NCBI RefSeq assembly: GCF_000189635.1
Contig: NW_002476432.1
Coordinates: 496,001-560,000 of the forward strand
Reading direction: 5' to 3'
Source of the DNA: Tetrahymena thermophila SB210
Taxonomy: Eukaryota; Ciliophora; Oligohymenophorea; Hymenostomatida; Tetrahymenidae
Length of the DNA: 64,000 nucleotides
In this document: piece after piece, positions 1 through 57,677 of the stretch
Position numbering within the stretch: position 1 is the stretch's first letter
Layout: every line of letters begins with the position of its first letter
The notes under the pieces: model-generated
Seen by the model: the letters and a program-made list of their open reading frames with translations, nothing else
What the model was told of the DNA's origin: nothing
Databases searched by the model: none
Position numbers and translations under genes: made by a program

Positions 1-1288
1 GATTATTCTTAACATTTTCGATGTTTTAAGGGAAATCTTCAGTTATCCTTTTACTTATCTCAAAGCAAACTTGTTCAATCTCTTATTTGAATTGATTTTC
101 GCTAGTTTTAAATTAGCCTTATTCAAAAACTTCAGCTTTAAATTCATCAATCATTTATAAATATGAAATAATATCTAGTATTTCTTTAATATTTTGGGAG
201 GAAAATATGTTGCTTTATTCAGAAGCTTCCTTAAAAGTGTTAAAAGCCTAGTTTTTTTATTTTTCAAAGATTCTTACAATTTCTTTCGATAAATCTTGAT
301 ATGAATATAACAAAAATTCATTCCCTGTATAGTCCCTTATTTACTTGAATTCAACCATTCTATTCTTTACTTCCATATACTTTCCATATTATTATTATTT
401 TAATATAATTTTGCTCGTCTCCTCTGTGTATAACTTTATCTATTAATTTGCATTTTCTGAAACACTAAAGCAAAATTCTTCAGCAGGATTACTGAAAGAT
501 TAATGGCTAAGGATCTTTTAAAGTAATAACCTATGATTTCCATCAGCAGGATTTACAATTACTAAATTACTATTGATTTTAAGTTAATTTAAAATAACTT
601 TCAAAAAGGTTTTCATTGTAAATGATTCCCTATCTTCTTCTTAGTTTTTCATAATATCAAGAAAATCTAGAATCTTACTATTAATAGTTTTAAAGCTTTT
701 ATCATTAGGAACCTTAGTAAATAGAAATATTATCTTTTCAAATTACTCTTACTCTGGGTTTTAAAGAATTCTAGTTACAAGTTTAAATATCTCTTAAAAT
801 AATGCTCCTCTTCGAGCCTCTAATTCAAAAAAGCTTATCAAAACAACCATTTTCACACTATTGCAATTCAACATAAATTACTTTAAAGAATATGCATTAG
901 CGATTTCGATTTCAGTACCACGATTATCAAAAAATCCAGGAGAATCGCACAAAAAATAATTACCTTGTAAATGAGCTTTTTACAGTGTTGAAGTATGTGA
1001 TTTTCCAGAGTGCCCAATTTCAAATATTCCATTTGAATTAAAAACTTCAGTTTCACTTTAATAGATTTCACCATCTACTTCTTTCTCTATTTCAATCTTT
1101 TCAAAAAACATTTCATAACCTAAAAGATAGTTAGCAGTAGTACTCTTTCCGCTTCCAGTAGGTCCTGCTAATAAGATTATATCCTTATCTTTTAATTCGC
1201 TATAGTCTTATTCGTATTCCTAGAATAATTCTATCAATTTTTTGGCATCTAAATTGTTTTCTCTATTTGATATTTCTGGCTGATTCAT
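1..1288 (-). CDS. GTPase domain of a second GTPase-SecA-like protein, cut by the window edge
   Basis: This is the 5' part of a minus-strand gene that starts at ATG 1288 and runs off the window. The protein begins MNQPEISNRENN and soon reaches a P-loop, GPTGSGKST, followed by TANYLLG and a DSPGFFDNRG motif (G3/Walker B of a GTPase). It aligns without large gaps to the first ~430 residues of the complete gene at 22849-30057. The P-loop, the DNRG motif and an FTKVP motif where NKxD would be expected are all retained. TAA/TAG codons read as Gln, and I saw no TGA within the visible part. The neighbouring copy continues into a helical region and a SecA motor, so this one probably does too, but that lies outside the window. 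Alternatively it could be a truncated duplicate. Confidence 0.85.
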
Positions 1289-8595: not shown

Positions 8596-8932
8596 ATTTG
8601 TTAATCATTTTGTATGTTTTATTTGAAATGGTTTCTAATAATTTTACAAGTTTATAAGTAATTGGATACTGCTATATTTAGGCATATCTGATATGAAAAT
8701 AAATGACAAAAAAATATTTTACTAATAAATACATAAATTTTAATGGTTAAATGTATTTTTTTTCTTCATAGTTCATTGTTTTTTTTCAATAATTTGTTTT
8801 AATTTTAAATAAAAATAACTTTGCTTCATTTTTATTTTCCAAAATATTGACTTGAATTTATATTTATATTGAAGTTAGTATGTTCTAAATATATTATTAA
8901 TATAATTAATTAATTTCGTAAAAATAGATTAA
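8596..8932. other. Intergenic spacer, 337 nt
   Basis: A+T-rich spacer between two plus-strand genes. T-rich tracts (around 8757-8825) and A-rich sequence just before the ATG at 8933 are the only features. No ORF or RNA gene was seen. Confidence 0.4.
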
Positions 8933-11900
8933 ATGAAAGGAGAAAAAAAAAAATTTGATAAATATGGATTATATTGTGAATATTCACAATAAGAGAATCT
9001 TTAAATAAATACTTTTTTAATGAATTGTATTCTAAATTACTAAGAAAAGAAATACACTAAAGATAATTCTGATTTTAAAAGAATGCTAAATGACTACGCA
9101 AGTCCAGATTTAAAAAAAAATTTTTTTGATGGAAATTTTGAGGATATGGATTTTGATAATCCTGAACATGAAAATTTAATGGATTTTATAAGTTATATTA
9201 GTGATTTTATTTATAAAATGTAAGATATTTTAATCAAAATGTAAAAATTTGATGGAAAATAATCATTTCAAGAATATTTAGAATCATTTTACTAAACAAT
9301 TATGAAATAAAATAGACGCTAAGATATGGAATCTTTAAATCAAATGCTGTCTTAGAAAAAGGAATTTTAATATTTTATTTTATTTGATCCATACTGGAAA
9401 GATGCTTTCAAGGAGCTTGTTAAAATATTTCAAGGAATTAATAATGCAGAAAATATAGAAACCAAAATGGGAATCAAAGTAAGTTTTAAGTCAAAAGAGG
9501 CAAGAAATATGTTTAATCTTTTATGTGCTTAGTGTATATCTTAATTTAAGCTTATAAAGTAATAAGATGTAAAATCAATATGTGAGCATGCTGAGTTTGA
9601 AAAATTAAAAATTTAAGCACTCAAAACTGTTTTTGCAAATTTTGTAATCTTTAGACATACAAATGTATAGAAACAATTTTTTAGCTCTTAACAATAAAAT
9701 TTACTTGATCTGCACTTATTCACTCCAGAAATCAGCAGCAAAGAAGATTAAAGTCTGATGACGTACTAGCAAAATCCATATATTTTATTGCCTCAAAACA
9801 TGCATATACAGCTCATCGACTAAAAAAAGAATCCTCTTTCTTTAGTAAAATCTATGAAACTTGTTATTTAGAATAAGGATTATGACTATATATCATATGA
9901 AGAAAATGAAGAATTAGATATTCAATTACAAAATTAAGATAAGAGCAAGTATAAAAAACTAGAATACTTCATAACATATTTTTATTACTACAATGAAGAG
10001 GATGAAGAAGATTAGCAGTCTAGATATGCATTTGTTCCTGCTTAAGTTTTGGATGACGGTGTAAAATCAATGCAATAATCGTGTTTTGGATTAGATGGAT
10101 TTCTTTAAAACAGTTAAATGTAATCCCTCCTAGAAGAATTTAAAAACCCTCTTAGGTTTTATGAATGTAAGGGACCTCTAATTTATGGACCACCTGGAAC
10201 TGGTAAAACATTTATTATCCAAAAGATGATAAAATACTTTTAAATCCACTTAATATTTGATGGCAACAGTTCTACTTTTTAAACTTCCCTTTAAGGATAA
10301 GGATCAAGAATGCTTACCTATTACTTTAATAGAGCAAGAGCAATACCATGGTATTTTTTTTTTATTCTGGCTATAAAAAGCAGATAAATTTGTGTATGTG
10401 TATAATGATTAATTAATTTTAAATTTTAGGTAGCCATGTGCAGCTCATATAGGAGAAATAGAGTAGCTTGTTAAAAAGAAAGATAAAGATGGAGGAGGAT
10501 CATCAGAAGTGCTTAATAAACTTTTAGAATTAACAGATGGTACAGAAACTGTGGGAAATATTAAGATTTTTAGTACAACAAACCATGTTGAAATGATAGA
10601 AGAAGCTATTTTAAGTAGATTTAGATAAGTTTATCTGGGAAAATCGAATACACCTCTGAGAAGAGATTGGATTGTTTGGTATTTGCTTTAAAATAAAAAC
10701 CAAAGCGAGGATAATTTTAAATCAATTATTTAAGGATTCATTCCTGATGTTGAAGACTTTATAAAGTAGTCTGAAAAAGAATAAGAGAAATAGCTTAAAG
10801 ATGCAATATAAGATATTGTCAGTTATACAGTTAACTTTAGTACAAGATAGCTTAAAGCTCTAATGTCAAATATAACCTCAAAAATTTTATTCGGGGAGCT
10901 TAATTATTAAAGTTAACCAGAGTAAAAGTTGAAGTGTATTTTAAACTTCTGTAAATCTTTAGGAGAAGATAATTTCATGTTTGGAAGTAAAAGTCTACCT
11001 CAAACAATGTTTGATTGTTTAAACTAGAATCCATCTGAATTTGTAAATTAGCTTTTAAATGAGTCTAATTAAAAAAAATAAGACAATAGCTCATAATAGC
11101 TAATTTTAATGGATTCATTAGAAGATGAGTTAAATAGTCAAGAAGTGCAGCTATTTATAGATGAGAATTTTGAATATTCGAAAGTAGTATTTATTGATCA
11201 GTCAACAGTATAAAATGAGAGGATTAGTATTTTGAAGTAAAAATAAAGAATTTCATAAAAAATACATCTTTATAAAAAAGTCGAGGATATGTATTATAAG
11301 TTAGAAATCTTAGTTGGTACCATACTTAAATGCTAGCAGTTTAAACATTTATTACAGGAAATCGAAGATAGTATTTCAAAATTTGGAAAATTATTTATTG
11401 ATCTAGATAAATAACTGTAATTTTATCGTGATTACCAATAAAATAAAAAAAAATTGTAGCTGCCCTAAGGTAATAAAATATAAATCCATTTAATTAATTA
11501 ATTTATTTATTTATTTTTAATATCAAAAAGAAATTTTTACATTATTGCAAAAAACAAGAACTGAATAGATAAAAAAATATGAGGAATTAAAATCAGGAAT
11601 AAATGCTGAAAGCAATAATGGTAAAAAAGTTAAACTTTTACCTATCGATAAATTAAGAGAAATAGATAATTTGTTTAAAGTTTTTAAAGAATTAATTTAA
11701 CAAATCGACAAATAAATAAACAAAGTAAGAGATGATATTGATCGTTATACTAGTTTCTTAAGTTTAGAATAGAAATTAGGAGAAATTAAGGACATTTTGA
11801 TTAAAGATAATAGTTAAATAGATTTCTAAAAGTTGATAAAAAATTAAGAAGCATTTGCGAACAACGAAGCTAATAAGTTGTTAATGCAGCTCAAAAAAAT

Positions 11901-16890: not shown

Positions 16891-17304
16891 TTATCTTTTT
16901 TATAATTGATTCTGTCCCTTTATCAATCAAATTTTTTTAAAAAAATTTAGGTCTGATAGAAGTGGAGAAATTTGAGGGTACTTAGTTAATGAGGATCTAG
17001 ATATATTAATTAATTGTTTTGGCATTTAAGAGTAAAAGTAGTTCTTTAACTAAAATACAAGTGGAATAAAATTGAAATAATATTTGAATATCAAATCTAA
17101 ATTTGAATAAATAAAAATATTTTATAACAAACAGAAATTTTAATTATTGAATATTTAATATCAAATATCTTCACTTAATTATCTTTTTAATAACTTAGCA
17201 CAATTAATAAAAGAAAAGGCTATTGCTTTAACATAAATAAGGTATAAAATAAAAAATATTATTTTAGAGGTTTACAATTAAAAGTCAAATTAAAATACAT
17301 TACT
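16891..17304. other. Intergenic region upstream of the 1719-aa GTPase gene
   Basis: This follows the end of the duplicated unit. A short plus-strand open stretch near 16950-17065 (GLIEVEKFEGTQLMR) is more G-rich than its surroundings but lacks a Met start and ends at a TGA; it may be a gene remnant. The remaining sequence is A+T-rich. Confidence 0.4.
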
Positions 17305-20300
17305 ATGTCGTTACTAAACCCTCTTTTGCAATCTTCTGTTCAAGACGATCCTAGCTTTTGGCTTAGTAGTGTTGTTCTCTCATCTTAGGCTAGTTATAAT
17401 AGTTCTTATATTGAACAAAATGTATTTAAAACATGCTTCAAACCTGAAGAAATGCTTAACTAAATTGAAGAAAAGTCAATACTATTTGGTTATGCTAAAA
17501 ACAAGGATGCCATTTTAGTTTTGGGTTCAACTGGAAGTGGAAAGTCTACAACTATCAATTTCTTAATGAAGAAAAAGATGGTTTTAAAATTAACATCAAT
17601 TACTCATTATATTGAAGATGTTGGAGAAATAGAAGTGGAAGAAGAACAAATATGCACAGAAAATAATGATGGCGATGATGAAGAATTTAAAATTGGCTTT
17701 AAAAAAGAATCTTAGACACTAATTTTAAAAGCGAAATAGCTAGAAGATAGCGATTTCTTTATTTGTGATACTCCAGGATTCAAAGATAGTAGAGGCTTTG
17801 AAGTAGAATTATCAAATTCAATTTGTCTTATTAATTTTATAAAGCAATGTAAGAGTATTTGCCCTATTCTAACAATTAATTATAATGATTTGAAATCAGT
17901 GAGAGGTGCATCCTTCAAAGATATACTTGTGTCATTTTCTAAATTTATAGAAACTGCATCCATGGATAAGGTGATATATTTTTACACCCATGTTCCAAAG
18001 TCATTAAAAATCAAATAATTGTTAAATGATATTATTCAGATAAGAGAATCTCTTGAACAAAATTCCACTCCTGAGCTTAAAGTCTTGCTCATTTCATTAG
18101 TTAATGGATTTAACAGTAAAAAAGCTTTTATTTTAAATCCTGTTGAGGAAGATCCAAAAAGTTATCTGTAAATTATTAACGATTTATATAAAAATTAATA
18201 ATTTATTAATAGCCCATCAAGTAAATTTAATATTAACTTATCTGAAGACAGTCTTACTAAATTAAAACTCTATTCAGAAGATGTTCTTTCGTATGTAACA
18301 AAATGTACTCAATAAGGTTTCCATATTGAGAAACTGATAGATGTTTTAGACCAATATGCAATGATTAAAAATATCACTATGGTATAAAATATGATTGAGA
18401 AGTATGATCAATGCATTTAAAGGGTGCTAAATTATGCTGCATCTACAAAAAGGATAGCTTTCAAAAACTTAAACTAATCTAAAAACCTACAATAAGAAAT
18501 AAATTAAAGATATATCAATTAAATAGTAATATGCCTCGAATAGACGTTGAAGATAGATAGTTATAAAAATCCTCACTTCTAGAAATATGAGTTTACCTAT
18601 AATTCAATTATTGATGAAATAAAAATAGTTATATAATAGCTTTGCTATGAAATCACAGCATGCTTTTAAAATTAAATTGAAAATATTAATATTTAATTAA
18701 TAAAATCAAATATAATTAAAATTGAATAGCTATCAAATATATCTTAAGAATTGCATAGATTCAGTTATGAAATAAAACATTATACAAACTAGTAATTCTC
18801 AAATTATGAGAAAGAACAAAGTTAATTTTTAGAATAATCTCTAACAAAAGAAAGTGAAATACCTGTTTTTGAAGAAAAATTAGCAAAAATAGTTTAAACA
18901 TTTAAGTAATTCAATGAAATAGATACATAATTAGATATCATCTTACTTGATAGCAGTAAAGAGTAATTATTTCATAAATACCAATAAAAATTAAGTTATA
19001 TTCTCTAACAGTAGAATTAAAATTTTATTTCAATAGTAAATAAACTAAAATAGCAAATGTAAAATGAATAAACTCCAGATATGATAAATTTTTAAATCAT
19101 TAGTTCAAAACAATAAATTTTTGAGATAAAGGTTCTTTTAGAGATATAAAAAAATATATTCTTGAGTGAAAATATTTAGATATGTTAAGAATATTATAAT
19201 AACCTAAAAGAGAATATTGAATAATTGTCTACAGCTATTATAGAATATTTAACTGAGTATTGCCAAAAAAAAAAATACATAACAAAATACGAAGTTGCAA
19301 TAGATACATTAAATTTGTTATTAGACATCGATTAAAATGCTAAACTATAAACTTAAAACAACTACATAAAATTTATTCAATGCATAAAAAATAAGATTTC
19401 TATAACAAAAACTTAAATAAAATATGAGATTAAATTAATAATTAATAATGAAAAAATAGGTAAATAATAATTATTAAACAAAACCATGTAAAAATTAAAT
19501 AAATATAATTAATTTTTGAGTGATGTATCTTGGATTGATGAGAAATTGAAGACAAAATGCGTTTAGCAAACAAAAGATAGCATGAAAAAATGGGTTAACA
19601 AGTATTTCAATTACTGCATATAAGGCTGCGATTAATCAGTATATGACTAAAACTTTAAATATTTAGACTCTTTTATGGTTTGCTTCTCTAAGTTAAAAGA
19701 AATAAAAGGTATGATAGATAACTTTAAATAAATAGTTGATAAATGTATTAATAACATATATAATTAGATCGTTTCCTATATATATCCAATACAATCTATG
19801 ATTAAACAAATTATAACTTCTAAAGAGTTACCAGAATTAAGCTAGCTTTAAGATATTGAAAAGTATTTAATTTATAAAAGCAAAATATTAAAAATGATAA
19901 ATCCATACATTTCTGTAAAGCAGATGGACTCTATCAATAAAGAAGAAGATGAGATGTTTGAAAACTTAATTAATGGAAAGTTATCAAGAGAAAATGAAAT
20001 TATAATTGAAAATGACTTTGAAGATTTTTTTAGAGAGACTTTTAAAAAGTTTTAGAATTTATTTAAAGAATTATCATACTTTAAATTATAGAAAATGGTT
20101 TAAAAATAAAATTAAGAAAAAGAAATAATCAAATGGAAGAATTTCACTAAAATAATTAATTAATGCTAGAAAGAGTGTAAATAAATTATGTTAATTATAG
20201 GAGGAGGAGACTCTTTTAATGATATAGTTTAGAGTATTTCAAATACTTTCTATAAATTATAAGACGAATATAAAGATATAAAAAGTAATAGTGAATATTT

Positions 20301-22464
20301 AATAGATATTACATAAAAATATCAACTTTTGGAAGAATTTGTTGATGCATTTTCTAATTTAGAACCTTTATCTAATATGAGAAACTAGCTTATTACTACC
20401 TAAAATCCTAGATAATTAATAAAAATTACTGTAGAAAATTTACAAAAGGAAATTAAACACAATCGCTTTACAGAAGTTAAAATATTTATAGAATAATTAA
20501 ATAAACTTTCAGATGAATATTCTAAGGATAAACTCTCTAAATGTAGGGAATAATTAGAATAATATCAATAAGAAATAATTAATGAAATTAACATTTTAGT
20601 TGAACAGAGTAAAAATAGCTTTTATATTAATTAGTAATTAGTTGAAAAAATTAAATGTTTGAAGGAAATTTCAAAAATTAATACAAAAACAAATGTTTAA
20701 TAAGATTTACATGCAATTTTATTAAAATACAATGAATAAAAATTATAGATAATAAAAAATAAAATAAGAAATCTTCAATTTGAGGAAGTAAATATTTAAT
20801 ATTCTTTAATTTAATAATTTTCAACGTATATTTCTACTGAAGATAATTTCAATTGCTAATAAATAATCCATCAAATTATTGAGTCAGTCAAAAATCTTGA
20901 TCAAATTTATCAAAAAAAGAAATTATTTAAACTTATTAAAAAGCTTCATTTGATTATTTTAGAAACACACAATGATGATCCAATTAAAGAAACTTATAAA
21001 GAAGTATTTATCATAAATTTCTATCGCTTAGTAGAATATGCTAAGACAGAATTGTTTGAGATATCAGAAGAATTATAAAATAATAAAGATTAAATTTAAC
21101 TAAAGGTGATTAATTTAAGATTAAATAAGCTTGAATATATTTCTTAGAAAATAGAATAGTATATATAAAAATTACTATCATCAGAAGAATATGTAAAATA
21201 AAAAAATTAACTTGAAGTTCAAATAAAATATTTGATTTAAGAAATTGAAGAAAATATAAGTAAGTTGGAATAAATTCAAAAAGAGAGTAATAACTATCGC
21301 CCATTAAGCTCATTTAAATCAAGTGAAAATTTCGAAGAAACTATCTAAAGGCTAAATTTATTAAAAGAGTAAGATATTTAGTAATATAAGAAAGAAGTGG
21401 AAGTTATTGAAACTAAAGTAATGTATTAGTTAGTTGATTTAATTAATTCTTTCCTGAATTTGAATCAAGAAATAAGAAAATCATAAGTAAAGTAGATTAT
21501 TTATTATTTAAAATTCAAATTGTACTTCAGTAATAAAGCTAAATAAGAAATTGATAATGCGTTGTAAGATTTAGAAAATAAAATTAACAATTTTTTTAAT
21601 TAGCAATAAATAGAGTTTTAAAAAGTAGAAACTGTTTCTAACTTAATTGCTTATCACGATTTAATAGAATTGATAAATTAAAAGTCTTAAAATAGCAAAT
21701 CTTATTAATTTATAGAAGAAAAGTATTAACAATAACTAAGTAATTTTATTTATTTTCTTTTTGAAATATAAGAAAATTAGCAAAAATTAATATAAAACTC
21801 TAAAAATATGAAAGATATAGCATAATTAAAAAACATCTATTAGTTTACTATTAAAAATAATCCTTTTATAGAATTTTACAAAAAACAAAGTTATTTGTTT
21901 TAGGTTGGAGATGAGAAAGTTGTATTAAATATTTTAGATTTGGAATTAATAGAAAAAGCTATTATTTCAAGTGTTACCTCTATTAAAGAATAAATCAAAA
22001 TTAGCTTTCATCAAAAAAATTTCAATTAGTTAAAGGAAAATCTGTAGGTTTTAGACAAAAACTAAGATGTAAATTAACTATTGAATAAAAATGTATTTGA
22101 ATATCAGGTTGAGTTGCAAAATATTTAATTAGAAACACAAGATATAACATCTCTTATAATAAAGAATATTTAAGAATAAAAAATTGATGAAAGTACACAA
22201 ATAGCAATTAATACAATTTATTATTTTTTTGAAATATTTTAGACAACATTTTAAGGGTTAGATATATCAGAATAGTTAGAAAATATATATAATCATCTCT
22301 AAATTTACATAGAACCTATTATCACAAATGTGGTTTATAATAGCACTGATTTAGATAAAGAAACTATATTAAATAAAATTACTAAGTAACTCCCAAAATT
22401 AGAAGGAAAAACATAAGATTTAATATCTTTGATAATTTCATAATATATTTCTTTCTTGTCTTGA
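17305..22464 (+). CDS. 1719-aa P-loop GTPase with a long helical C-terminal region
   Basis: A single exon runs from ATG 17305 (MSLLNPLLQSSVQ) to TGA 22462. Residues ~60-290 form a GTPase domain: P-loop GSTGSGKST at 74-82, G3 CDTPGFKDSRG with Asp155, and YFYTHVPK near residue 227 where NKxD would normally lie. An acidic insert (EVEEEQICTENNDGDDEE) sits between G1 and G3. Residues ~300-1719 are almost pure helix with many Gln, Leu and Ile residues and no membrane segment. Domain order matches the first two thirds of the 2402-aa protein encoded convergently at 22849-30057, but the SecA motor is absent here. The architecture resembles dynamin/AIG1-like large GTPases in a general way only. The function is unknown; a nucleotide-controlled scaffold or membrane-remodelling role is possible but not shown. 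Confidence 0.88.
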
Positions 22465-22848
22465 AGTATAAATATTAAATACCTCTAAGTATAAAAACTC
22501 TACATATTTGTCATTTTATTTCTTCAATATTTATTTTTTTATAATTAATTTCTTTTTAAACTTTTTTTTGCCTTGAGAATTTTTTTTAGAAAAAGATAAA
22601 TAATCTTAAATATTTAATTTAAAAAATAACCCAAAAAAAGTAATGTTTTAAAAAATACTGAATATTCGAACAAGAAAAAAAAAAAAAAATTCGAATAGTA
22701 AAATTTTGCAGAACACTAGTAAGTTCTAAAAACTATTTAAATCCAAAATTAATTTGATAAAAAAACTACACTTATATAAATAAACAAAGGACAAATAATA
22801 TGAATATTTAGGGATTTATAAAAGTATATTAGAATTAGTTGAGTGAGT
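22465..22848. other. Convergent 3' spacer between two large GTPase genes
   Basis: Both flanking genes end here (TGA at 22462 on plus, TGA at 22851-22849 on minus). A poly(A) run of 16 near 22674 is flanked by TATTCGAA and TTCGAATA, a short inverted repeat. This could serve 3'-end formation, but that is a guess. Confidence 0.45.
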
Positions 22849-25800
22849 TCAACAGCTTTCATTAATATAGCGATTAGCTTAATCATAATTTTTATTTTTA
22901 ATATTCTAAATATATTCCATAGTTTTTTAGTGGATATTAGTAGCCTATTTTATATCATTTTCAATATTTTAATACAAATCATTTTCTTTTTTATTTCTTA
23001 TTTCATTAAGATTATCATAAAGAGATTTATTATTTTGATTATTTTTCCATTATTAAATTTAATTTATATTTAACCCAAAATCTTTTATTAAATCTTATTG
23101 ATTTAAGATTAAATAGTATTATCCTTGTTAACCTTGCCTTGCAGTTCTTCCTTTGATTTAGATTTCTTCTGTTTTGTTATCTGAAAGAAATGTTTAGATT
23201 ACTACTACACCACCTGATTCATTTACCATAGGATCTAATGAAATGAAATCTGTTCCTCTTCCATACTCTCTCACAAAAAGTCCTATTTGACCTGACTTAG
23301 TCACTCTTAGAACTTAAAAATTAAAATCTTCACTACTATCATGATCAGTGAAAACTAAATAGTTTTCTTTAGGGAGGTATAAATAATTGCTTTTATGATA
23401 TTATATTAAAGATTCACTATCTTTAAAGAATATAAGCACAGATTATTTTTTTGTAATTGCTGAATAAGAAATCTGCTAAATTTACAAATATTGGTTTTAT
23501 AAATCTGTTTCTACTTTTACCATATCTCCTTTTCTAAAATCTAGCTTAGAATCTCCAAACATAGAAGGGATATATATCTCTTTTGAGAATTTATACTTTT
23601 TGAGAGACTATTTCATTTGATAATTTAAAGATTGAAGGGTACCTGTTACTCCTAAAATAGCTGAATAGCTATCTGGTAATAGTGCATAAGAAATTTATCC
23701 GCACCCTAAATTTAATGAAATTTATTTTTAAAGTGTTTAATCATCTATATTTCCTTTGGAATTTTCAAGAAAATATGCAAAAAGAGTTTAGTAATCACAA
23801 TTAGCACCGAAATAAATTGTTGAATCATTTTATCTATACCCAATTTTATTATCTCTCACTACATAACTTTTAATTTATTTTTGATGGTTTACTTTATTCA
23901 CATCGTAAGCAAGTTATATAATATGTCTTTAGAAGAGTTATTCATATTTTGGAAATTTGTTGATTAATTCTTTATAGTTACTACTTTATTCAATATTCCT
24001 AATAATCTTTGATTCTGACTATCCTCTCTAATTCCAAATTTCTGTAATAATATTTTTTATTTCTTAAGTCTCAAAATATACTAAGGGATTGTAAGTTTTT
24101 CCATAATAATCTAGATTGAAAAAGATATCTACTTCATCAATTAACAAGATTTTACAATTTTTAGTATTTTTTATTAAGTTTTTGTGATCATTTTACATGC
24201 TTTAATTTACTATATTTAAGGTAGTTTACCTAACATTTAAATAATTATCTATGTACTTTTCTGCTTAATAGTTTAAAGTTCCATATTTGATTTTTTCAGA
24301 AACTCCAAAGAAGCTAAAGAGCTTACGAAAGTCTTAATTATCTCTCTATGAAAGGTAGGAACTATAGCAAACTACATCAACCTCACAACCTAATAAAGCA
24401 AGCATTAAAGAACAAAATCCTAATGTGATTGATTTTCCTTCACCAGTCAAAATCTCAATCAACTAATTTTTAAATTACATTTAGTTTTCAATAGAAAAGA
24501 ATTTCCTAACACCTTACCAAAATCCAGTTACTCTATGAATTCCTAAAAGCATTATAATGCTAATTATTTGAGTATGGTTTGGTTTTTTAAAGATATCTTT
24601 TTTGCCTTACTTTTATTCTCCACTTTCAATTAGAGTCCAGAATGCACAAATTTGAGCAAGCAAATTTAGAACTTCATTTTTATCCTCCTTTCTTTTTATT
24701 TAAATAGATAATATTTTTACTTTCTTTACAATTTTTTCCCACTTATTCTTATTGTATTTATATTTCTGAATTGTTTCTTCATATTTTTTTAAGTAAATAT
24801 CATAATACTGTTTTAGCTATTCCTTTAATTAATCACTTAAATTTTATTTGATACCTCCTCTTTTGCAGTATTGCAATTTCTCAAGAATGTAATTGATGTC
24901 ATGTTTTCCTACTAATTCGTTAAATGTATCAATCTTAAAAGACTAATAAAATATAGGTATATTGTTCAAAATATGAGCCCCTGAAGCATCTTGTTTGAGA
25001 ATATTACCTAATTTAAAAATTACTTCTTCTCCCATAGCTTTCTTTATGATTTCAGCTGCTTCAAATAACTTTTTATTGGCAATTTAACCAAACTTACACA
25101 CTTATTCAGAAATTTGTTGTATGCTAATTAAAAATTAGCTAATTTCATTTAGGTTTTATTAATTGGTAAAAGTCCTATTATAAAGTTAAGATATTTCTTG
25201 ATCTAATTTATTAGTAAGCTCATTTAAAATTATTTGGATTTAAGGTTCATAAGGATATTGATCTATTATCTTCAAATGTTCATCTGCTTAATAAATTTTA
25301 TTCATCAAATCATACATTTTTAAATCATAAGTAAAACTAGCTCTCACTATATCTAATGCTTCTCTAGTTATTTGATTAACCTTTTACTAGATTATTTTAA
25401 ACATCGAACTAATATCAATGAATTCTGTATTAAATTCTTAATTTATTTAAGAAAATTTCCTTATTTTAAAAATTATCTCTTTAACTTATTAGAAATCACA
25501 ATTTTCCAATGCAGCAGTAAAAGCTTACTCTTAGCAATTAAAATTTTCTTTTATAACAAGTAGCATTTAATCGTGGTTCAAAATCTCAAGACCAATTTAT
25601 TTTATTTGTTTAAGCTCGTCAGATAAATCAAACAATTAAGGTTAATACTGTAGGATTTAGTGTAGAGCATTGAATTTTTTCAAATTTTTATTTAAAGTTT
25701 AATCTACTTACATACTCTCCTTCATTAATTGTTGAGCCTAATATAATTATTATAGTCCTTCGATTACTTTAACTAAAATACTTTTAAAATATTATTATAA

Positions 25801-28800
25801 ATTCGATAACTCTGCTTTTTAAACTGTCTCTTCTTGAATTATTTTAAAGAATGAGTGATGTTTAAATAGATTATATAAATTTTATTATGTAAACGAATGA
25901 TCACTAATAATCAGAACATTCTCACATATCTCAAATAACTTTCTTGATTATGTAAATATATGACTAGAAAGTTAATTAATTAGTGTTTTATGTTACCCTT
26001 CTTCATTTACAAAGTTTTTTATTATTACCAAGAAGCTTGAAGCAGCTAAAAAATTATTCTAGAAGCTAGAAATTTCTATATAGGGGAACTGCTCTTTAAT
26101 TAAATTGACAGCTTAAGAAATTACATTTTCAATTTTTTTGATTAATTTATGGAAAAACTGCTCATCTACTTACTTAATTTTTTGTAGCTGTTCAATAGCC
26201 ATATCATGTTACTTTTTAACCAATAAATTTTAAATTTCTTATAAACTCTTATTAAGTTCGTTTTTTATCTCTTGTTCAATTTAAAATATACTAGCTTAAA
26301 AATCGCAATTTTTCAATTATTCAATATTTTCTGCTTTCTAAACAAAATCTTTAATGATTTTTAACTCAATACTAAAAAAATTATCTTAATTTTTTATTTT
26401 TTCTCTAATGCTCAATTCATAGTTTTTAAATACTGACTTAACCATTTCTATTGTATTTAATATCTCTTTTTAAATTGTCTGTGAATAATTTGAAAGGCAC
26501 TTCTAAGTTTAAGCTTCATTTAGTCCTTAAAGCAAATTTAAAAGATACTAAAACTCTCCTGAATTATCTGAATTATGAAGACTTAAAATAATCTTTGGAA
26601 TTTCCTCTTTTATTTAGTTAATTTCTTAGATAAAAATATCCCAATCCTTTTATTAGAAAATGTTTCTAAATTTATTCAAATAATTAAAAGATTGCATTAA
26701 TTATCTGTATTGCTATTACATTTCTAAGAATTTTAGTTGTTTTATTTAACTGAAAATCATTTATTTTTAAGAATCCACGTAATTTTACCTGAAACTATTT
26801 AGTTCATTTTATGAGTTTTAGTAAAGCTCAATCTTATATTTCTCCAGTACACTTAATATTTATGATAAATTTTAGAGATTTTTTTAAAAATTTTGATAGA
26901 AATCTTCATTTTTTTAAAAATTAATATAAATCTTTACTTGTTATATTTCATAAAAAAGCTTATTATATATTTTTTAAAATGCTTTATCTAAAGCTTATTT
27001 ATCAGTATCGCTTTAAAGCTGATTCAATAAAAATATTTCTGAATCTAGGCTCTAAAAATCTTCATTTTTTATCAAATTTTCAAGTTTCTTAAATTTTTCC
27101 TAAATAGTCTCTTTTGGTGTAGGTAAACTTTCAAAATGCCTCTATAAAAAATTAAATTCATTCATGCTTTAGATAAATTTTTGAATTCCATCATAGCTCT
27201 CTTAAATCTGTTCAAGATTCTACATTTTTTATTTTTTAGAAGTGTAATCAAATACCATCTCATCATACACTTTTTAAATCAAAGTAGTAAGTTATTCAAA
27301 AGAGAATCCCTTTAAACATGATTAAATATGTAGGTATTCTTTTGATATTAATTTAGCTTGTTTAACAAAATTATTATAAATTGTGAAATCTTTCACAATT
27401 GTATAAGATTATGCTTTTGTTAAATTCTCAATTTATTTGAAATTTTCCTCGAAATATTTCAATATTAGACATTTGATATCATTTAGCGAAGAAGTAGAAT
27501 CTCTCTTAGCATCAGCAATCTTGCCTAAAGTCTGAATGTTTTACAAAAGCAATATATTTTAATTTAATCTTTCCCAGCAATCGCTATTAAATATATGATC
27601 TACTCTTTAAATACTACTGATAAATTCGTTTATTTGTTTGTTCAACTCTTATACTTTTTTCTTCACTAAATCTATGCACATATCATATTGTTCTTAGTAT
27701 TTTTCATTCCTATTTTTAAATACAGTAAAACAGCTCATACTCTATAGAAATTATCTTACTTATTAGAATTTATCATTTTTAATCAAATTAAAAATACTCT
27801 ACTTGCAAATCTCAAAGTATTTATTGAGCTTTTCAAAGAGCTTTTATATGCTATTTTATGTAAATTTTGTTTAAAAATAATCATCTGTCCAAAGCATATA
27901 AGTAAGAAAATTGTAAGTCTTCAACAGTTTATCAAAATCAATTTATTAGCTTTTTACTAATTCATCATTTGATTTTATTGAATTATTAATATCATCATCT
28001 TTTTCTTCTTCACTAGACTCCTCTTCTTTAATATCCTATAAATATTTGTTCAATATTTTTTTAGCTTTACTCGCCTTTTTTTTAATTTTTTACTTAATTT
28101 CATCTTTTATTTATCTATATTCTTCAGCAGTTTAGCCTTAAATCAAATCGTCTTGATTTCTGATTTCATCTATTATTTTTAAGATATTTTGTAGCTAGTA
28201 CAAATGAAAACTGTCTTATGAATTTTCTTTGATGAGACTAAAAACTTGTTAATTAAATTCTTTTAAATATAAAAGAGCTTAATTATATAAAATCTCGCAG
28301 TCTGGAATATATTCAGAATATTTGCTATTCTGGTTTTATATTTTCAGTATGTTAATTTCAAAATCTGGCATGCACTCAATTTAAGGACTAAAAACAATCT
28401 AATTGTCATCTAAAGAGGGTTATTTCTAAATTTCTTTATTAATATTGTTAATTATTCTCTTTAGATTTGATAATAACTCATTATTTTCTTTCAGATGTAT
28501 TTGAACTATACTGTAAAAATTTTCATCTTTCTTTAAAATAAATGCTCTGAGAAATTCTTCAATTAATTTAATAGAGCCAATTTTCTAAGTTATATTGGCT
28601 AAGTTGTCTTTGATTGAGTTAACCTCTAATTATTTTGTCCTTTAAAAAAATTTTGTAGACAATAGTTTCAAGTCTTCTATTTCCATAATGTGTTTATACC
28701 TTATGTTTTTTTAAGTTTTATCAAATATTTATTAACATAAAGAAGTTTAATCTGAAAAATCTTTTAACTTTTATAGATTATTCTTAACATTTTCGATATT

Positions 28801-30057
28801 TTAAGGGAAATCTTTTATTATCCTTTAACTCATCTAAAAGCAAACTTCATCAATATCTTATTTGAATTGAATTTCGCTAGTTTTAAATTGGCCTTCTTCA
28901 AAAACAACACCTTTAAATTCATCAATTATTTTTAAATGTTAAATAATTTCAAGTATTTCTTTAATATTTTAACAGGAAAACATGATGCTTTTTTCAGAAG
29001 CTTCATAAAAAGTGTTAAATGCCAAGTTTTTTTATTTTTCAAAGATTCTTGCAATTTCATTCAATAAATCTTGATATTAATTTAATAAGTATTCATAGCT
29101 TGTGTAGTCACATATTTATTTGTATTCAACCATTTTTTCCATTATTTCCCTGTAAAATCCCTTCTATTAAAATTTTGTTACTATATTGCTAGTTTCCTTT
29201 GCGTAAAATAATAACCTTTAATTTGCATTTCCTGAAACACTAAAGCAGAATTCTTCAGAAGGATTAATGAAAGATTAATGGTTAAGGATTTATTAAAGTA
29301 ATATTTTGTGATTTCCATCAACAGGATTTACTATTACATAATTATTTGGTTTAAGTTAATTTAATATAGCTTTCAAAAAGCTTATTATCATTTATGATTT
29401 AATATCATTTTCATTTTTGAAATTCTCAAGAAATTCTAAAATTTCCTTAACAATATCATTAACTTTTTTTTCTTTAGGAACCATAGTAAATAAAAAAATT
29501 ATCTTTTCAGATTACTCTTTTTCAGGATTTTTAAGAATTCTAGTTAAAAGGTTAAATACCTCTTAAAATAATGCTCCTCTTTGAGCAACTAATTCATGAT
29601 AGCTTATTAAGACAACTAATTTCATGCTATTGCAATTCAACATAAATTAATTTAAAGAAAATGCATTAGCAATTTCAATTTCAGTGCCACGATTATCAAA
29701 AAATCCAGGAGAATCACACAAAAAATAATTTCCATATAAATGAGCTGCTTACAGTGTTGAAGTCTGTGACTATTTAGAGTGTCCAATTTAAAATATTCCT
29801 TTTGAATTAAAAACTTCAGTTTCAGTTTAATAGGTTTGACCATAGACTTCTTTACTTATTTTAATAAGTTCAGTATACATTTCTTAACCTAAAAGATAGT
29901 TAGCAGTAGTACTCTTTCCGCTTCCAGTTGGTCCTGCTAATAAGATTATATCCTTATCCCTTAATTAGATTTAGTCTTTTTGGCATTCTTAGAATAATAA
30001 TATCAATTTTTTGACATCTAAATTATATTCTCTAACAACTGTTTCAGACTGATTCAT
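22849..30057 (-). CDS. GTPase-SecA fusion: N-terminal GTPase, helical middle, C-terminal SecA-like motor (2402 aa)
   Basis: ATG 30057 and TGA 22849 are in one frame, and five motifs checked along the gene lie in that frame, so it appears intronless. Residues 1-~400 are a P-loop GTPase (GPTGSGKST 42-50; DSPGFFDNRG from Asp115; FTMVPK instead of NKxD). Residues ~450-1780 are long helices. The C-terminal ~600 residues match the SecA motor: LLGIHRVTGFW, then LTGEGKSI (Lys1875), ALLGCEVDVV, SSYLSQRD, KYGT, ILLIDEVD (1974-1977), YGRGTD, and GRTARQG at 2303-2309, which corresponds to motif VI (GRAGRQG) of SecA. There is no signal or transit peptide and no membrane segment, so it should be cytosolic. 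In bacteria and plastids SecA pushes proteins through SecY; here the substrate is unknown. An isolated minus-strand gene, convergent with the related GTPase at 17305. Confidence 0.9.
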
Positions 30058-31130
30058 TAATATACAAATACAAGTATTTTCTTTTTAGAATTAAATTTAT
30101 TGTTATGTATTAATTTTTTATAAAAGTATATTGTTTAAATTAATCGGTATATAAATTCACAAATACAAAAACGCTAAATCAAAAAGATAAAAGAAAGAGT
30201 GATAAAAGAGTTTTTAAATATAAAAACTTTATAGATTTTAAAAAATAAGCAACATAACTTTATTATTCCTTTATCCTAAAAAGAAAGGGTTTAGATTATA
30301 AAATATTAGTATTGTTAATAAATCAATTATTTATTAATTTATAAAAATTAAGCACTCAAATATTTAGATTACTTTTTAGAATCATATAATTTCATTGTAT
30401 TTATTTAAATCATTTAGTTACATATGTATTCTATATGAATACCTGAATTATATTTTCGAAAATAATTAATTGATGATTTAGTTATGTTTTGGTATTGATT
30501 ATCTAAATAATTATAATAAAAGTGTTTTTTTATTAATCTTAAATATTCTAAATGCTTTCTTTGTATTTTCGAAAATAATTAATTGATGATTAAGTTATGT
30601 TTTGTTATTGATTATCTAAATAAGTAAAAATAAAAGTGTTTTATTTAATTGTTTTTTATTAATCTTAAATATTCTAAATGCTTTCTTTGTATTTTCGAAA
30701 ATAATTAATTGATAGATTTTTAATTAAATTCCAGTATTCATTATTTAAAAAAATAAAAGTCTTTTACTTATTTTGGAAGATTTAATGTTTCCAAATGATC
30801 ATATTTTTGAAAATAATTAATTCATGGATTTGATTAGGTATGAGCATTTTTTATCTAAAAAAATAAAAATGTTTTATTCAATTCTTTTTTTTTTGGTCGA
30901 TTTAAATAATTTAAAGTCTTAGTTTTTTAAAAAATTAAAGCACTTTTTTTACTAAAAAAAAAAATTTAATCTTAAACGGAAGTGCGTATCAGAATTACTT
31001 AATCTTTCTAACAAATTCATTAAATTAGACATTAATACGTACTAAAAATATAAGGTAAATTATATTGATTTTGAATATTTTATTTTTTAAATAGATGAAT
31101 CATATTATATATATATAACTTAAATGAGAT
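28774..31130 (-). repeat. Segment duplicated at 1-2130 (5' GTPase region and promoter)
   Basis: About 2.1-2.3 kb, covering the first ~430 codons of the GTPase-SecA gene and its upstream flank, is repeated in the same orientation at 1-2130. The coding parts align closely; the flanks are more diverged but recognisable (TGGTCGATTTAAA at 1921 and 30894). The duplicate continues beyond the left window edge, so its full size is unknown. Confidence 0.85.
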
Positions 31131-31347
31131 AGATGGTATCATAACTAAATATTCATTAAATTTTTAAGCTTTAATTTTATTTTTTAATAAATATAATGAA
31201 ATTATTATTGTATATTTTGAAATAATTGTTGAATAGGTTATCAATATATAATATATAAAATGCAAATATTGTTTTATGTAAACAGAAGCAGTTTAAAATA
31301 AACTGATGAGAAAAAATGGGTTTATTAATTAATAGTTTTAATATTTA
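30058..31347. other. Intergenic region with 113-126-bp direct repeats
   Basis: Upstream region of the GTPase-SecA gene and 3' flank of the gene ending at 31348. It includes four direct repeats (see the separate entry) and the block homologous to 1289-2130. No gene was seen. Confidence 0.6.
30451..30850. repeat. Direct repeats of ~113-126 bp in the upstream region
   Basis: The block TATTTTCGAAAATAATTAAT begins at 30451, 30564 and 30690, with a degenerate form (TATTTTTGAAAATAATTAAT) at 30802. Each is followed by a TTATGTT/ATTGATTATCTAAATAA segment and a run of TAAAAGTGTTTTAT. The corresponding place upstream of the other gene copy (about 1830-1905) has one unit only, so the array expanded after the large duplication. 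Each core contains the palindrome TTTTCGAAAA. Confidence 0.85.
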
Positions 31348-32559
31348 TCATTCTTAAATTTCAATATAATTTGATTCAAAAGATACATCTAGTTGATTGT
31401 CATCTTCAATTTCAATTACATCTTCATTTTTTATTTTAATTTCTTAGATTATATACCTTTTACTTTCTATTAAAATTTTTAGAGATTCTTAAATTAGCTT
31501 TTCGTACTCTGAGCTTGAGCTGTTACTAATTTTGGGCTTCTTCGATTTTTTTTATAGTTTATTTATTGGTTTTGATCTCATGGCTAGATTTGATGGTTTT
31601 TCTTCTAGTTCTTATTTAGTTTAATTTTTAATTGTAAGATTATTTTACATTATATGTTACTTTCTAACTTTAGCAGATTCTTCTGATTGGATGTTTTGGT
31701 TATGTAAGTTAGTTTCTGTAGTATCATTCTTTTCCTTTAGCATTTTTGCTAGTTATTTCCATTAGATTTTCCTAGGTTATCCATCTTTTTTCAGAGATTT
31801 GCTATAATAGAGTGTATTATTTAGTTAATTTTATTTATTTAACTCAGCTTCTTGCTTAATTTCTTAGCTATTTTCATTTTATGAGATATGCTCAATTTAA
31901 ATATCAGTTTTATGGTTATCAATTTATTCTTCATTTTCTTGGCTATTTACAGGATCTTCTTTAATTTAATTATTTTTATTTTATTATGGGTTAATTATTT
32001 AAGTATTCGTGTTTTATTCTTTAGTCATTTTTATTAGCTTTTTCCAGTGAATTTTCTTTGGTTATCCATTTTTTTTTAAAGACTGTTAATTTATTTAATT
32101 TTCGCATACAACATTTGAATTTACTTCTTCAGCTTTATTAATTGATTATTCATTTTAGTTGTTTATTAATTTATTTGATTAACTTATCTAATCTTCGCTA
32201 TTAAGTAGATTTTCTTATGTTTTTAAATTTTTAGAAATTTCAACACCCTAAATTACTTGTTTGTCTTCTTTAAATTCCTCTTCTTAAATTTAAGATTTTT
32301 GTTAATTATCAATTTAATTTAAACCTTAATCTGATTTATGTTCAATATTTTCTGTTTAAATTTAAGTTTATTTGAAATTTATAATCTTATTATTTTTTTT
32401 AGATCTTGTTCTTCTTTTTCTTAGTGTAAATTCCTCTTAGCTTTAAGATTAACTTTATTCATTTTAATCATCTTCTATTTCTTTGTTTTCTTCTTCTATT
32501 TTTTCAACTTTATATTCAATCTAAGTATTTTAATTTTATTCCTATTCTAATTCATTTGC
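31348..32559 (-). CDS. Basic/acidic nuclear-type protein, 3' part (possibly the 3' exon of the gene upstream)
   Basis: An open frame of 404 codons ends at TGA 31350-31348. Its left border at 32559 looks like a splice acceptor (AATTAAAAG), and there is no Met in frame before it. The product is highly charged, rich in Glu, Gln, Asn and Lys. A basic segment, SLKKNGQPKKIHWKKLIKM, recurs about 90 residues later as SLKKDGQPRKIQWKQLAKM. A RKRRTRSKK cluster could be a nuclear localisation signal, and a Ser-rich tail SNSSSSEYEK is present. Two readings are possible. It may be the last exon of the gene at 32737-34715, via an intron 32859-32560 whose phases agree, or a separate gene with an unidentified first exon. 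I prefer one gene. Confidence 0.6.
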
Positions 32560-32736
32560 CTTTTAATTAAAAAAATTAATTAAAAAAAATTTAATCTCAA
32601 ATCAATAAAATTAATCATTTATTTTTTATTATTTTTGTTTTTTAGATTAATTTTGATACTTCTAAAAATGATTTAATTATTCTAATTAAAAAATAAATTG
32701 ATTAACTTTGTGTGATATGCTAAAAAATGTTTTTAT

Positions 32737-34715
32737 TCAATTTGAATTAATTAATGATTAGATTTGATATTATTAAGAAGATTTAATTATTCTTTATTAA
32801 GAAATAAATAAATCTTAAAAATAAGATATTGGGTGAATTTTAGCTCTTTTGTTTTCAACTGAAAATCGAATTTCTTTAGATTAAGAAAATACAAAATTGC
32901 TTTTGGATTATTAATTTATTAATGAAAAATTAGTATTTATATCTCTTTTCTCTGGTTTTAAATTAATTCTCAATTTTCAAACAGCTAATTTATTTAATTT
33001 TTGCAATTATTTTGTATCAAGAAATAAATGTATTTAAAGAGGTTTCTTACATTTTAACAATTCTCGTTCATTTTTTGGTCATCTTTTTGTTAAATAGAAC
33101 CATTTTCTGAAGGTTTTTATTATGAAATAGATGGTCTACTCTCTGCAATCGAAGAGTTTCTACGACGAGTAATATAGCTTCTTTGAGTGCTCTCAGGTAT
33201 AACAACTTCACTCTGTTCTGCCTTTATGTCTAATAGCTCTTTGTTTTTTCTTCTTTCTATTTTTTTTCTTCTCATTTTTCTTTCCTCATGAATTTTTTGT
33301 ACATCTTCAGGAGTTAAATTACCTTCAGTAATTAACTTTTTAATGCGATACTTTTGCTTATTTTAATCGCTGATTTTCTTCTTTTTCTATTCAATACAGA
33401 TCTTTCTTTTTCTTCTTGCAAAAATAGATATTTTTTCTCTGCTATCAATTCTGTTTATATGGCTCATATCTAAAAATTACTATACTTGTAATTCATATTC
33501 GTCCTTTAATTACTTGTAATCATTCACCACAGATACATCTTCTATGCTAATCTAACGGTCGCTCCATAAAACCTTGTAAAACTTATGATTTTTTTCATAT
33601 TTTTCACCTATTATTTGTATAATCCTTGGTTAATCACTATTTTATAAGTTATTCTAAGACATAATCTATCCATCTGCACTTTAAATTAAATTCTATAAAC
33701 CTCTATTTCTGTTATATAGATAACCTTCAGATCCTCTTGATTATTCTCCAAGAGAAATATCATAATTTTCCTTTTGAATATGATTTAAGGAGTTTGATGA
33801 ATTTACTTCAAGCTAATCCTTCTAAGAAACCTATTTTTATAAAATTGATATTATTCACTCTTAAAAACGCACAAACTTTTGTTTAAACAAAAATAGATCA
33901 ATGGCTTTGTCTAATTATTATCTTTTATTTAATTAGCTTGTGAATTATAGATGGAAAAAAAGGAAAAAATTTAAGTTCTAAATAAAATTGATTCCTGTTT
34001 AAAATTATCTATCATCATAATTCACTCGCTCTAAATTATTAAATTGTAAAAAAATGATATCAGTATTTATATTTACTAGTCTTCTTAAGGGATATGCGTT
34101 AATATTAGGAAAATCTATTCCAAATTTATCTAGATTAGGAACACTAATAGCTTAGTTAACTAAACTTTAGAAATGGGGATTATTCAATTAATTTATAAGT
34201 TGATCATTGCTATCTAATTCTTCTGAAAGAATATCAGATAAATTTTCATCATCGTAATCACTGCTTTCTTCTTCTACTTTTTCCTATTTTGTATTATCTT
34301 CAAGTTCTTCTCTTTTGTCAAGCTAAATGTCTCCGTTTTCTTAGAAAATATCGTAAGACTCCTCTCTTTAGACTTGAATTTCTGGTAATTCTTTGAGTTA
34401 ATTATTGCTCATTTCTTTATTTATTATTGCTTGATTTAGACAAGGGAAAATATTTCTTAATTCCTAATTAATTTTTGATATGTATAGATCAATCAAGTAG
34501 TTAAAAAGCAACTCTAATAGCTGCTATTAAACTTCTATTTTATTAAAAGTTAATTCTTGATTTGATGAAAGATTTTAAAATGATCTTTTAATTTCTGATT
34601 ATTTTCTTTCAGAATTATTCTAATTATACTATATCCTACATCAGAATATAATCAAAAATTAATTTATATATTCCTCTATAATTTGTAAAGTTTACCTAAT
34701 AATCATTATATCCAT
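32737..34715 (-). CDS. Charged nuclear-type protein with a possible chromodomain-like segment, multi-exon
   Basis: Likely exons (minus strand): 34715-34696, 34635 to about 33860-33950, 33830-33051, and 32949-32737 (or to 32860 if spliced to 32559). The splice at 34695/34636 and that at 33050/32950 keep phase; the joint near 33850 is unresolved. The N-terminal half has an acidic stretch (EEESSDYDDENLSDILSEE). The middle contains RIIQIIGEKYEKNHKFYKVLWSDRQISIEDV, shown here as two parts: RIIQIIGEKYEKNHKF and YKVLWSDRQISIEDV. It has the hydrophobic spacing and Y-x-V-x-W core of a chromodomain, but the match is weak. A strongly basic region follows (ARRKRKICIEQKKKK, EERKMRRKKIERRKNK). It diverges from the SET-domain gene at 35744. 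Confidence 0.6.
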
Positions 34716-57300: not shown

Positions 57301-57677
57301 TATTTTCGAAAGATACTGCACAAATCTCTAAGGCTCACATAATTATTGGATTATGTTAATTAAATATAGGGCAATTTTTAAAAAGTTTAGAATCTGCTAT
57401 TAATTCAATATCAGTTAATAAAAATGTTATTCAGCAAGATATTCATAAGTTGTCCAATCTTATAAAAAATATTTTCAAAAGATATTCGTTTCTTGGATAT
57501 GTATCAATGTGTCTATCTTTGAAAAATTAAAACTCAGATAAATTCTAAAATTAAAATTTTCAAAAGTATTAATATTTTTTGATAATGATTTACTTATTAA
57601 TTCTAGAATTTTAATAACAAGATAAAAACCAAAGACTTCAACTTTATAGAAAAATTTTACAAATTGATAAAAAATGA
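54327..57677 (+). CDS. Protein kinase with C-terminal TPR repeats, 1116 aa (array unit 2, intact)
   Basis: A single frame runs from ATG 54327 (MTGNSQRNFGDIIKQD) to TGA 57675. Residues 1-~370 are Gln/Asn-rich and contain two 36-residue repeats. The kinase domain has GEGGFGVVFDG at 394-404, a VIFKIQF strand with the ATP-binding Lys, EKCECNL as hinge, HLDIKPSN from His510 (Asp512 catalytic), DFG at 530-532, and SFAPKEV in place of the usual APE. The C-terminal half carries kinesin-light-chain-like TPRs: SLALNNLGTMYQNF, then HPCIARSLHCVGQCYLNMGD and LEQAKKYLYRSYFMRR, then LASIATYHQQSGEFIKS. It should be a soluble Ser/Thr kinase whose TPRs bind partners. All catalytic residues are present, so it is probably active. 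Confidence 0.9.
54642..54857 (+). repeat. 108-bp in-frame repeat, 2 copies, in the kinase N-terminal region
   Basis: AACTCTAAAAATGAATAAAG at 54642 recurs at 54750 (AACTCTAAAAATCAATAAAG); the period is 108 nt or 36 codons. The encoded unit is NSKN-x-QSSIKYEI followed by a variable part. The paralogous gene has three copies at the same place, so the repeat number has changed since duplication. Confidence 0.8.

Follow-up and report, generated by a model that had tools for sequence, protein, structure and literature searches.

What kind of protein results when a P-loop GTPase and a SecA-type motor are encoded in one reading frame of a ciliate gene? The question is raised by a gene on the minus strand at 22849..30057 of a 64,000-nucleotide stretch of Tetrahymena thermophila SB210 DNA (contig NW_002476432.1, positions 496,001 to 560,000; the whole stretch is referred to as the window). 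An earlier examination of the letters alone, hereafter the sequence-only reading, had proposed a GTPase switch that controls a protein-threading or remodelling SecA motor, which would be a new kind of machine, with the SecA ATPase possibly gained by ancient transfer. SecA-domain proteins of insects, Daphnia, Polysphondylium, Salpingoeca, and T. thermophila are described in the accessible part of PMC3639933, together with the SecA-domain genes wBol1_1091 and wBol1_1092 of Wolbachia wBol1 and movement between Wolbachia and eukaryotes. Domains listed for Amoebophilus effectors include SecA-like and GIMAP-type GTPase ones (PMC3482391, accessible part), and SecA-like ATPase domains with a predicted role in secretion occur in giant secreted actinobacterial toxins (PMC8195603, accessible part). 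Here, we report that the gene almost certainly encodes a GTPase-type domain, a long arm, and a SecA-type two-RecA ATPase core in a single protein, and that this arrangement recurs in a family of genes in the same genome.

Results

Open frame and genome setting

With the ciliate code (table 6), the minus-strand frame is open from 30156 to a TGA at 22849-22851. From the first ATG at 30057, the gene is a single open frame of 2402 codons plus the TGA stop, and its 2402-residue product is encoded with 199 in-frame TAA or TAG codons (168 TAA, 31 TAG). With the standard code, no frame of at least 150 amino acids was found across 20000-33000. The coordinates and motifs named by the sequence-only reading were all recovered in this one frame. 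The guanine-plus-cytosine (GC) content of the window was 16-28% in 2-kb steps. Searches of the organism's own genome covered 101.0 Mb in 445 contigs, the large ciliate-code genome to which the window belongs.

The absence of a transit peptide was upheld, in that the N-terminus carries neither a hydrophobic nor a strongly basic stretch by simple composition (no predictor was used). The absence of a Sec partner nearby held as well, as a Pfam scan of 13 frames of the window did not detect the SecY family; elsewhere in the genome, two loci gave SecY-family matches (type unassigned). The most hydrophobic 19-residue segment was that at residue 1879, inside the SecA core, and five such segments reached 1.6. 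The gene is presumably nuclear and its product would be cytosolic.

A SecA-like core with no detectable translocase parts

The SecA-like ATPase core spans residues 1786-2345 (23023..24702, minus strand) and was delimited by Pfam, Protein Data Bank (PDB), and family-profile matches. Five motifs were located: Walker A TGEGKS (residues 1871-1876, 24430..24447), Walker B LIDEVD (residues 1972-1977, 24127..24144), motif III VTGTL (residues 2137-2141, 23635..23649), motif V YGRGTD (residues 2265-2270, 23248..23265), and motif VI GRTARQG (residues 2303-2309, 23131..23151), all on the minus strand. The SecA motif VDVVCYSSYLSQRD, listed between TGEGKS and LIDEVD, was also confirmed. Across 10 aligned SecA cores of the family, the ATPase motifs are kept with few changes.

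Pfam SecA_DEAD matched residues 1824-1980 with an expectation value (E) of 1.1e-12 and 48.2 bits (cut-off 24.6), which bears out the SecA assignment of the sequence-only reading. P-loop_SecA alone reached 16.0 bits, under its cut-off of 27, and the second half of the core was weaker by itself. Searched as a single sequence against the PDB, the protein matched SecA structures (E 2.6e-9) over two segments, one per RecA fold. A profile of 10 family cores matched 24 distinct PDB sequences at E≤0.001; the best match (E 5.5e-16) had its best stretch in the second nucleotide-binding domain (NBD2). An ordinary helicase identity was considered and rejected because all 24 of these sequences are SecA.

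No match to SecA_PP_bind, SecA_SW, or SEC-C was found in the window protein at Pfam E≤1, nor in the C15 paralog at E≤0.01. The control, Escherichia coli SecA, matched all three families (9e-41, 2.1e-72, and 1e-10, respectively). From motif VI to the C-terminus, the window protein has just 99 residues; distant paralogs have 336-350 residues beyond motif VI. Motifs II and III are separated by 164 residues in the window protein and by 156-164 residues in the nine of 10 family cores that were measured; elsewhere the gap is 182 residues in E. coli SecA and 196-269 in six bacterial symbiont-type cores. The gap therefore points to an insert at the site of the SecA preprotein cross-linking domain. By these landmarks the layout of the core is SecA-like, with an insert whose sequence Pfam does not recognize, and the core is very probably SecA-like without being a translocase-type SecA. 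Like E. coli SecA, the family has the two-RecA-fold motor, the motif order, and an insert between motifs II and III; unlike it, the family has no detectable cross-linking, wing/scaffold, or SEC-C part, has other motif letters, and carries an N-terminal GTPase and arm. Thus, the SecA motor of the sequence-only reading stands as an ATPase core but not as a translocase. The protein-threading function was not borne out, because no preprotein cross-linking, SEC-C, or wing/scaffold part was detected and the motif letters are non-canonical.

GTPase-type domain

The GTPase-type domain occupies residues 1-345 (29023..30057, minus strand) and was defined by MMR_HSR1 and AIG1 matches and by an alignment of 12 family members. 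Its P-loop GPTGSGKST (residues 42-50, 29908..29934, minus strand) has G42, G45, G47, K48, S49, and T50 invariant in 12/12, and its G3 motif DSPG (residues 115-118, 29704..29715, minus strand) has D115, P117, and G118 invariant in 12/12; the switch Thr is likewise invariant. MMR_HSR1 scored 22.4 bits on the domain alone (cut-off 21.9) and 17.5 bits, under the cut-off, on the whole protein, so the GTPase call is weaker than the SecA call. Among the GTPase profiles, then, MMR_HSR1 was passed by the domain alone but AIG1 was missed (25.2 bits, cut-off 27); the C212 paralog passed AIG1 with 37.4 bits. All 12 family GTPase domains scanned matched MMR_HSR1 at E≤0.1 (best 5.7e-11), and septin and IMAP chains were among the structure matches of the domain. 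Column inspection found the G4 motif [NT]KxD in 0/12 aligned GTPases; the position reads TMVP in the window protein, and its fourth-place Asp occurs in 0/12. Guanine specificity is putative, since [NT]KxD is absent from all 12. Judged by the remaining signatures, the N-terminal domain is a TRAFAC-type P-loop GTPase that would bind GTP.

AIG1/GIMAP, septin, and very large inducible GTPases share the TRAFAC-type P-loop and DxPG with the family, and the very large inducible ones are, in addition, big GTPase proteins. The window protein differs from these GTPases in its missed AIG1 cut-off, its lack of [NT]KxD, and its attached SecA-like core.

A paralog family

A tblastn search of the genome with the window protein gave at least 20 scored matches among 36 candidates. 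Combined with a GTPase search, it revealed at least 11 GTPase-then-SecA pairs, each on a single strand (three on C116, two on C31, one on C15, one on C212, three on C127, and one on C112), so that the joining of the two domains in one frame, first seen in the window, is repeated in paralogs. Between the start of the GTPase and the final SecA residue matched, 6/11 pairs have no in-frame TGA, the pair at C127:24967 was open over the stretch read (1/11), and 4/11 were interrupted. Among the six unbroken pairs, the match of the C112 copy stops after motif III and its motif VI was not found; the number of complete copies is therefore five, all with TGA-free frames of more than 7 kb.

One full-length tandem copy is 65% identical to the window gene. 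The next tandem copy, G000:C116:490044-497288, has its first 429 codons (GTPase and arm start) inside the window at 1..1288 (minus strand) and continues beyond the window edge. A third tandem copy (L012, G000:C116:474875-482106) consists of three parts in different frames; as these parts overlap in their matches, frameshifts are more likely than introns. Beside the gene, a convergent paralog with a 1785-codon open frame lies on the plus strand at 17107..22464; it has a GTPase domain and a long arm, matches residues 33-436 only, and no SecA core was found in it. A cluster of six weak GTPase matches was also seen at G000:C176:782-798 kb, and the whole window protein gave no match on C176.

The arm and selection on the gene

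The arm, residues 346-1785 (about 1,440; 24703..29022, minus strand), has about 1% Pro and 1-1.5% Gly. At E≤1, Pfam gave it chance-level P-loop matches at the ends and no family of the SecA, coil, or repeat kind. It is probably helical, going by composition. In 6/6 unbroken copies, the distance from the GTPase P-loop to the SecA Walker A is 1829, 1842, 1888, 1815, 1805, and 1803 residues (mean 1830). An arm profile of three tandem copies gave two weak, high-bias matches in the arms of distant paralogs (1.1e-5 and 8.7e-5), and the one shown in detail adjoins the SecA core of its paralog. Otherwise, no match worth counting was obtained in distant paralogs, nor in the neighbor P0002. Arm length is kept and arm sequence has diverged almost past detection. 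A constant length with a drifting sequence suggests that the arm serves as a spacer; few insertions over time would also account for the length.

Against the tandem copy, the ratio of nonsynonymous to synonymous substitution rates (dN/dS) was 0.57 (0.49-0.65) overall, 0.45 (0.33-0.60) for the SecA core, and 0.56 (0.46-0.67) for the arm. Arm and core are constrained yet fast-changing; in this comparison the GTPase shows no clear constraint.

Bacterial relatives and motif letters

Relatives were collected with a profile led by the SecA-like core of Megaera against prokaryote genomes, and the best 80 of 116 were used. The top 30 loci (L034-L062, L108; E≤7e-53) have frames of 966 to 4051 amino acids, some ended by contig edges. 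By title, 21/30 belong to Rickettsiales (including Arcanobacter, which we take to be a member), Legionellales, Amoebophilaceae, or Francisellaceae, groups known for intracellular life; the remaining 9/30 are metagenome genomes titled by class, phylum, or 'bacterium'. SecA of ordinary length ranks below the symbiont-type giants in this list. Symbiont SecA-like frames are mostly 1,000-4,000 amino acids long, the largest being 5225, and the window protein with its 2402 residues is likewise a giant multi-domain protein.

In 15 giants scanned with Pfam (14 symbiont-type and L063), SecA_DEAD and P-loop_SecA were found in 15/15 and SecA_PP_bind in 5/15; SecA_SW was not among the Pfam families listed (25 of 26). 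Their companion domains include ankyrin, leucine-rich repeat, UCH, and nuclease-type ones. The family GTPase profile, run against 83 bacterial loci (the 80 relatives and L001-L003), gave seven weak matches (E 1.8e-5 to 0.015), all at Lactobacillales loci with a canonical-length SecA, and none in symbiont-type loci.

Motif letters were compared among 10 family cores, 33 symbiont rows, and 47 canonical-length rows, the last grouped by length (about 650-930 amino acids) and scan rank, so that some are SecA2-like by length. Ser follows the Walker A Lys in 10/10 family and 26/33 symbiont cores, whereas Thr does so in 46/47 canonical-length rows. Leu follows TGT in 10/10 family and 25/33 symbiont cores, as against Ala in 43/47. 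Motif VI has Ala in 10/10 and 23/33, respectively, as against Gly in 39/47. Asp after RQG is present in 46/47 canonical-length rows, 2/33 symbiont cores, and no family core (0/10). None of the canonical letters GKT, TGTA, and RQGD occurs in any of the 10 family cores. On these letters, the best reading is that the family core represents a non-canonical SecA-like type, as found in the giants of intracellular bacteria. The giants of Rickettsiales, Legionellales, and Amoebophilaceae resemble the family in their SecA-like core, with mostly Walker A Ser, TGTL, and no RQG-Asp, and in being giant and multi-domain with SecA_SW not among the families listed; they differ in having no GTPase-profile match, other companions, and a variable core position.

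Trees were built from bacterial rows and the cores of this genome, with plastid and other eukaryotic SecA rows absent. The 64-row quick tree leaves out L053 and L068 (partial cores), 32/47 canonical-length rows, and the C112 genes; the 46-row careful tree drops 18 more, most of them long or near-identical. The family forms a fully supported third lineage, distinct from both ordinary SecA (100/99) and the symbiont group (94/89), and its stem measures about 2.4-2.5 changes per column. In the quick tree, its joining to the main symbiont group had a support of 68. An ancient transfer, as suggested by the sequence-only reading, is plausible, though the trees point to no particular donor.

Mobile-element collections were also searched. 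The phage collection returned eight records, all with coverage of the query below 80%; a single one has a SecA annotation and the other seven have none. The plasmid collection returned 30 records, and among the matches listed (best 20 of 30) the top two are plasmids of Euplotes endosymbionts. Viral contigs gave no match to the SecA part of the window protein or to the family profile. With the symbiont profile, at least three loci of the viral collection (L124, L125, L126) were matched; these are contigs encoding symbiont-type SecA-like cores, and symbiont-type SecA-like genes may travel on phages. SecA-like genes of 1,589, 5,225, and 2,966 codons (L001, L002, L003) lie on Megaera/Bandiella plasmids of Euplotes endosymbionts, the first two being adjacent.

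Other SecA-like genes in the genome

PF07517 gave 14 matches in the genome. Two SecA-like genes (L028, L029) form a pair at G000:C9:571-600 kb, and no GTPase match was found on C9. In the careful tree, the pair groups with Bacteroidota symbiont proteins, mainly of Amoebophilaceae (97/84); it was unplaced in the quick tree. A further SecA_DEAD gene (L030, G000:C112:404988-405836) is split across two frames.

A TGA-free frame of about 4,370 codons lies on C391 (L114, L026, L115; G000:C391:16189-29307), with 195 of its bases inferred to be open because they fall inside an unbroken match. Its identity to a gene on a plasmid of Ca. Megaera polyxenophila, an endosymbiont sampled from Euplotes, is 80% before the core, 93% in the core, and 74% after it. 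GC is mostly 0.28-0.34 in the gene (0.24-0.37 per 400 bases), as against 0.20-0.24 in the flanks read. In a 1,223-codon piece, 11/16 TAA/TAG codons stand at Gln positions of the bacterial protein. A copy of the same symbiont gene on C129 (L027, L118, L120, L121; G000:C129:232955-243550) is more diverged, has an interrupted 3' part, and places 12/30 TAA/TAG codons at bacterial Gln positions; four reassigned stops are common to the two copies, out of 15 and 30 in the aligned stretch. The C391 gene looks like a recent transfer from a symbiont into a ciliate chromosome that is starting to use the reassigned stop codons; its direction is deduced from the tree and the GC island. Provided that the trees are correct, SecA-like genes entered the lineage at least three times, with the Megaera type, the GTPase family, and the C9 pair each counted as one entry.

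Other genes of the window

Two neighboring genes on the plus strand, 54174-57677 and 59816-63241, each encode TPR repeats downstream of a protein kinase domain. An AAA ATPase domain is encoded in two overlapping frames at 8873-11564, perhaps one gene with an intron.

Discussion

How might such a protein work? Self-assembling and membrane-docking proteins such as septins and AIG1 belong to the GTPase superfamily, and the GTPase head may anchor or dimerize the protein through assembly or membrane docking. The arm, near-fixed at about 1,450 residues, would set the reach. The two RecA folds of the core would open and close by ATP hydrolysis and pull on a target that the motif II-III insert grips. 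Threading of preproteins into a Sec channel would be no part of this cycle; it is possible but unlikely because the wing/scaffold parts are unrecognizable. The setting may be the handling of intracellular bacteria or their compartments. We regard a GTPase-switched, ATP-driven remodelling machine built on a SecA-like core, its cellular role set aside, as about evenly poised between right and wrong, and the GTP-switched remodelling ATPase as just short of an even chance. A role toward intracellular bacteria is suggested because the tandem clusters, the fast change, and the kinship fit it; we hold this doubtful. A bolder proposal, which we consider unlikely, is that an effector-type motor was captured as a host machine, with a GTP switch and an ATP motor kept at a fixed spacing by an arm of conserved length and free sequence, for cell-autonomous defence against intracellular bacteria; with similarly low probability, the targets would then be bacteria whose own motors are of this kind, and the family would have expanded in the ciliate for that reason.

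Several results weigh against a GTPase-switched remodelling machine of this descent. The GTPase domain misses the AIG1 cut-off and lacks the G4 motif, and its dN/dS against the tandem copy is 0.71 (0.49-1.01), not clearly below 1. The helical arm has composition as its basis. Four interrupted pairs and the shortened C112 match count in the same direction. A SecA_PP_bind remnant, too diverged for Pfam, may persist in the family insert, because 5/15 bacterial giants show SecA_PP_bind at E≤0.001. As for symbiont kinship, the symbiont profile beats the canonical one in 10/10 family cores (115-155 vs 65-81 bits), but it was made from 25 more varied rows versus 15, which favors any divergent query, and two rows from outside, L063 and L064, are likewise scored higher by it. 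The stem of the family carries a long-branch warning in the trees, and a tree that holds the family with canonical SecA was not rejected in the approximately unbiased test (p-AU 0.572).

A translocase in disguise, acting across the membrane of the endoplasmic reticulum, the mitochondrion, or a vacuole containing bacteria, with parts diverged beyond Pfam, would draw on the same remnant. The insert is present at 156-164 residues in the nine of 10 cores measured, the 336-350 residues past motif VI in distant paralogs leave room for a wing/scaffold-like part, and the genome has its two SecY-family loci. However, none of the three translocase families was found in the window protein or the C15 paralog, the 99 residues past motif VI in the window protein are few, and composition gives no targeting presequence; we judge this improbable. 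The core, its motifs retained, could instead serve cytoskeletal or ciliary transport as a scaffold or switch that depends on nucleotide, without any link to bacteria; its symbiont kinship would then be a matter of history alone. Kinship of the GTPase to septin and AIG1, the long arm low in Pro and Gly, and the big expansion in a ciliate agree with this idea, but no feature is specific to cilia or the cytoskeleton, and tandem clusters with fast change suit conflict genes at least equally, so that we find it unlikely as well. Selfish or decaying leftovers of a captured symbiont or plasmid gene, duplicating in tandem and then fading, would explain the interrupted copies, the GTPase dN/dS interval reaching 1.01, and the broken captured gene on C129. 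This is a very remote prospect in our view: the five complete copies are TGA-free over more than 7 kb, dN/dS is below 1 for arm and core, and motifs and spacing are preserved between very distant copies.

The reading we favor, a remodelling machine on a SecA-like core, is less novel than the 'new kind of machine' of the sequence-only reading, which is softened by the eukaryotic SecA-domain proteins and the Amoebophilus GIMAP and SecA-like domains already in print (PMC3639933, PMC3482391; accessible parts). In the accessible part of PMC3639933, the genes resemble the family: they are very long, their SecA domain is divergent, introns are scarcely in evidence, and horizontal transfer is indicated. 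They differ in that this part mentions neither a GTPase nor a fixed arm. The direction described there is from eukaryote to bacterium, whereas the Megaera-type gene on C391 looks like a transfer into a eukaryote. Our literature searches, which barely reached subscription papers, found no fusion of a GTPase with a SecA-type ATPase.

The family shows the fate of a SecA motor whose translocase parts are gone or unrecognizable, and a standard laboratory ciliate is available for testing it. As SecA-like genes occur at three levels of divergence from symbiont ones, the movement of motors between symbiont and host should be traceable within one ciliate genome.

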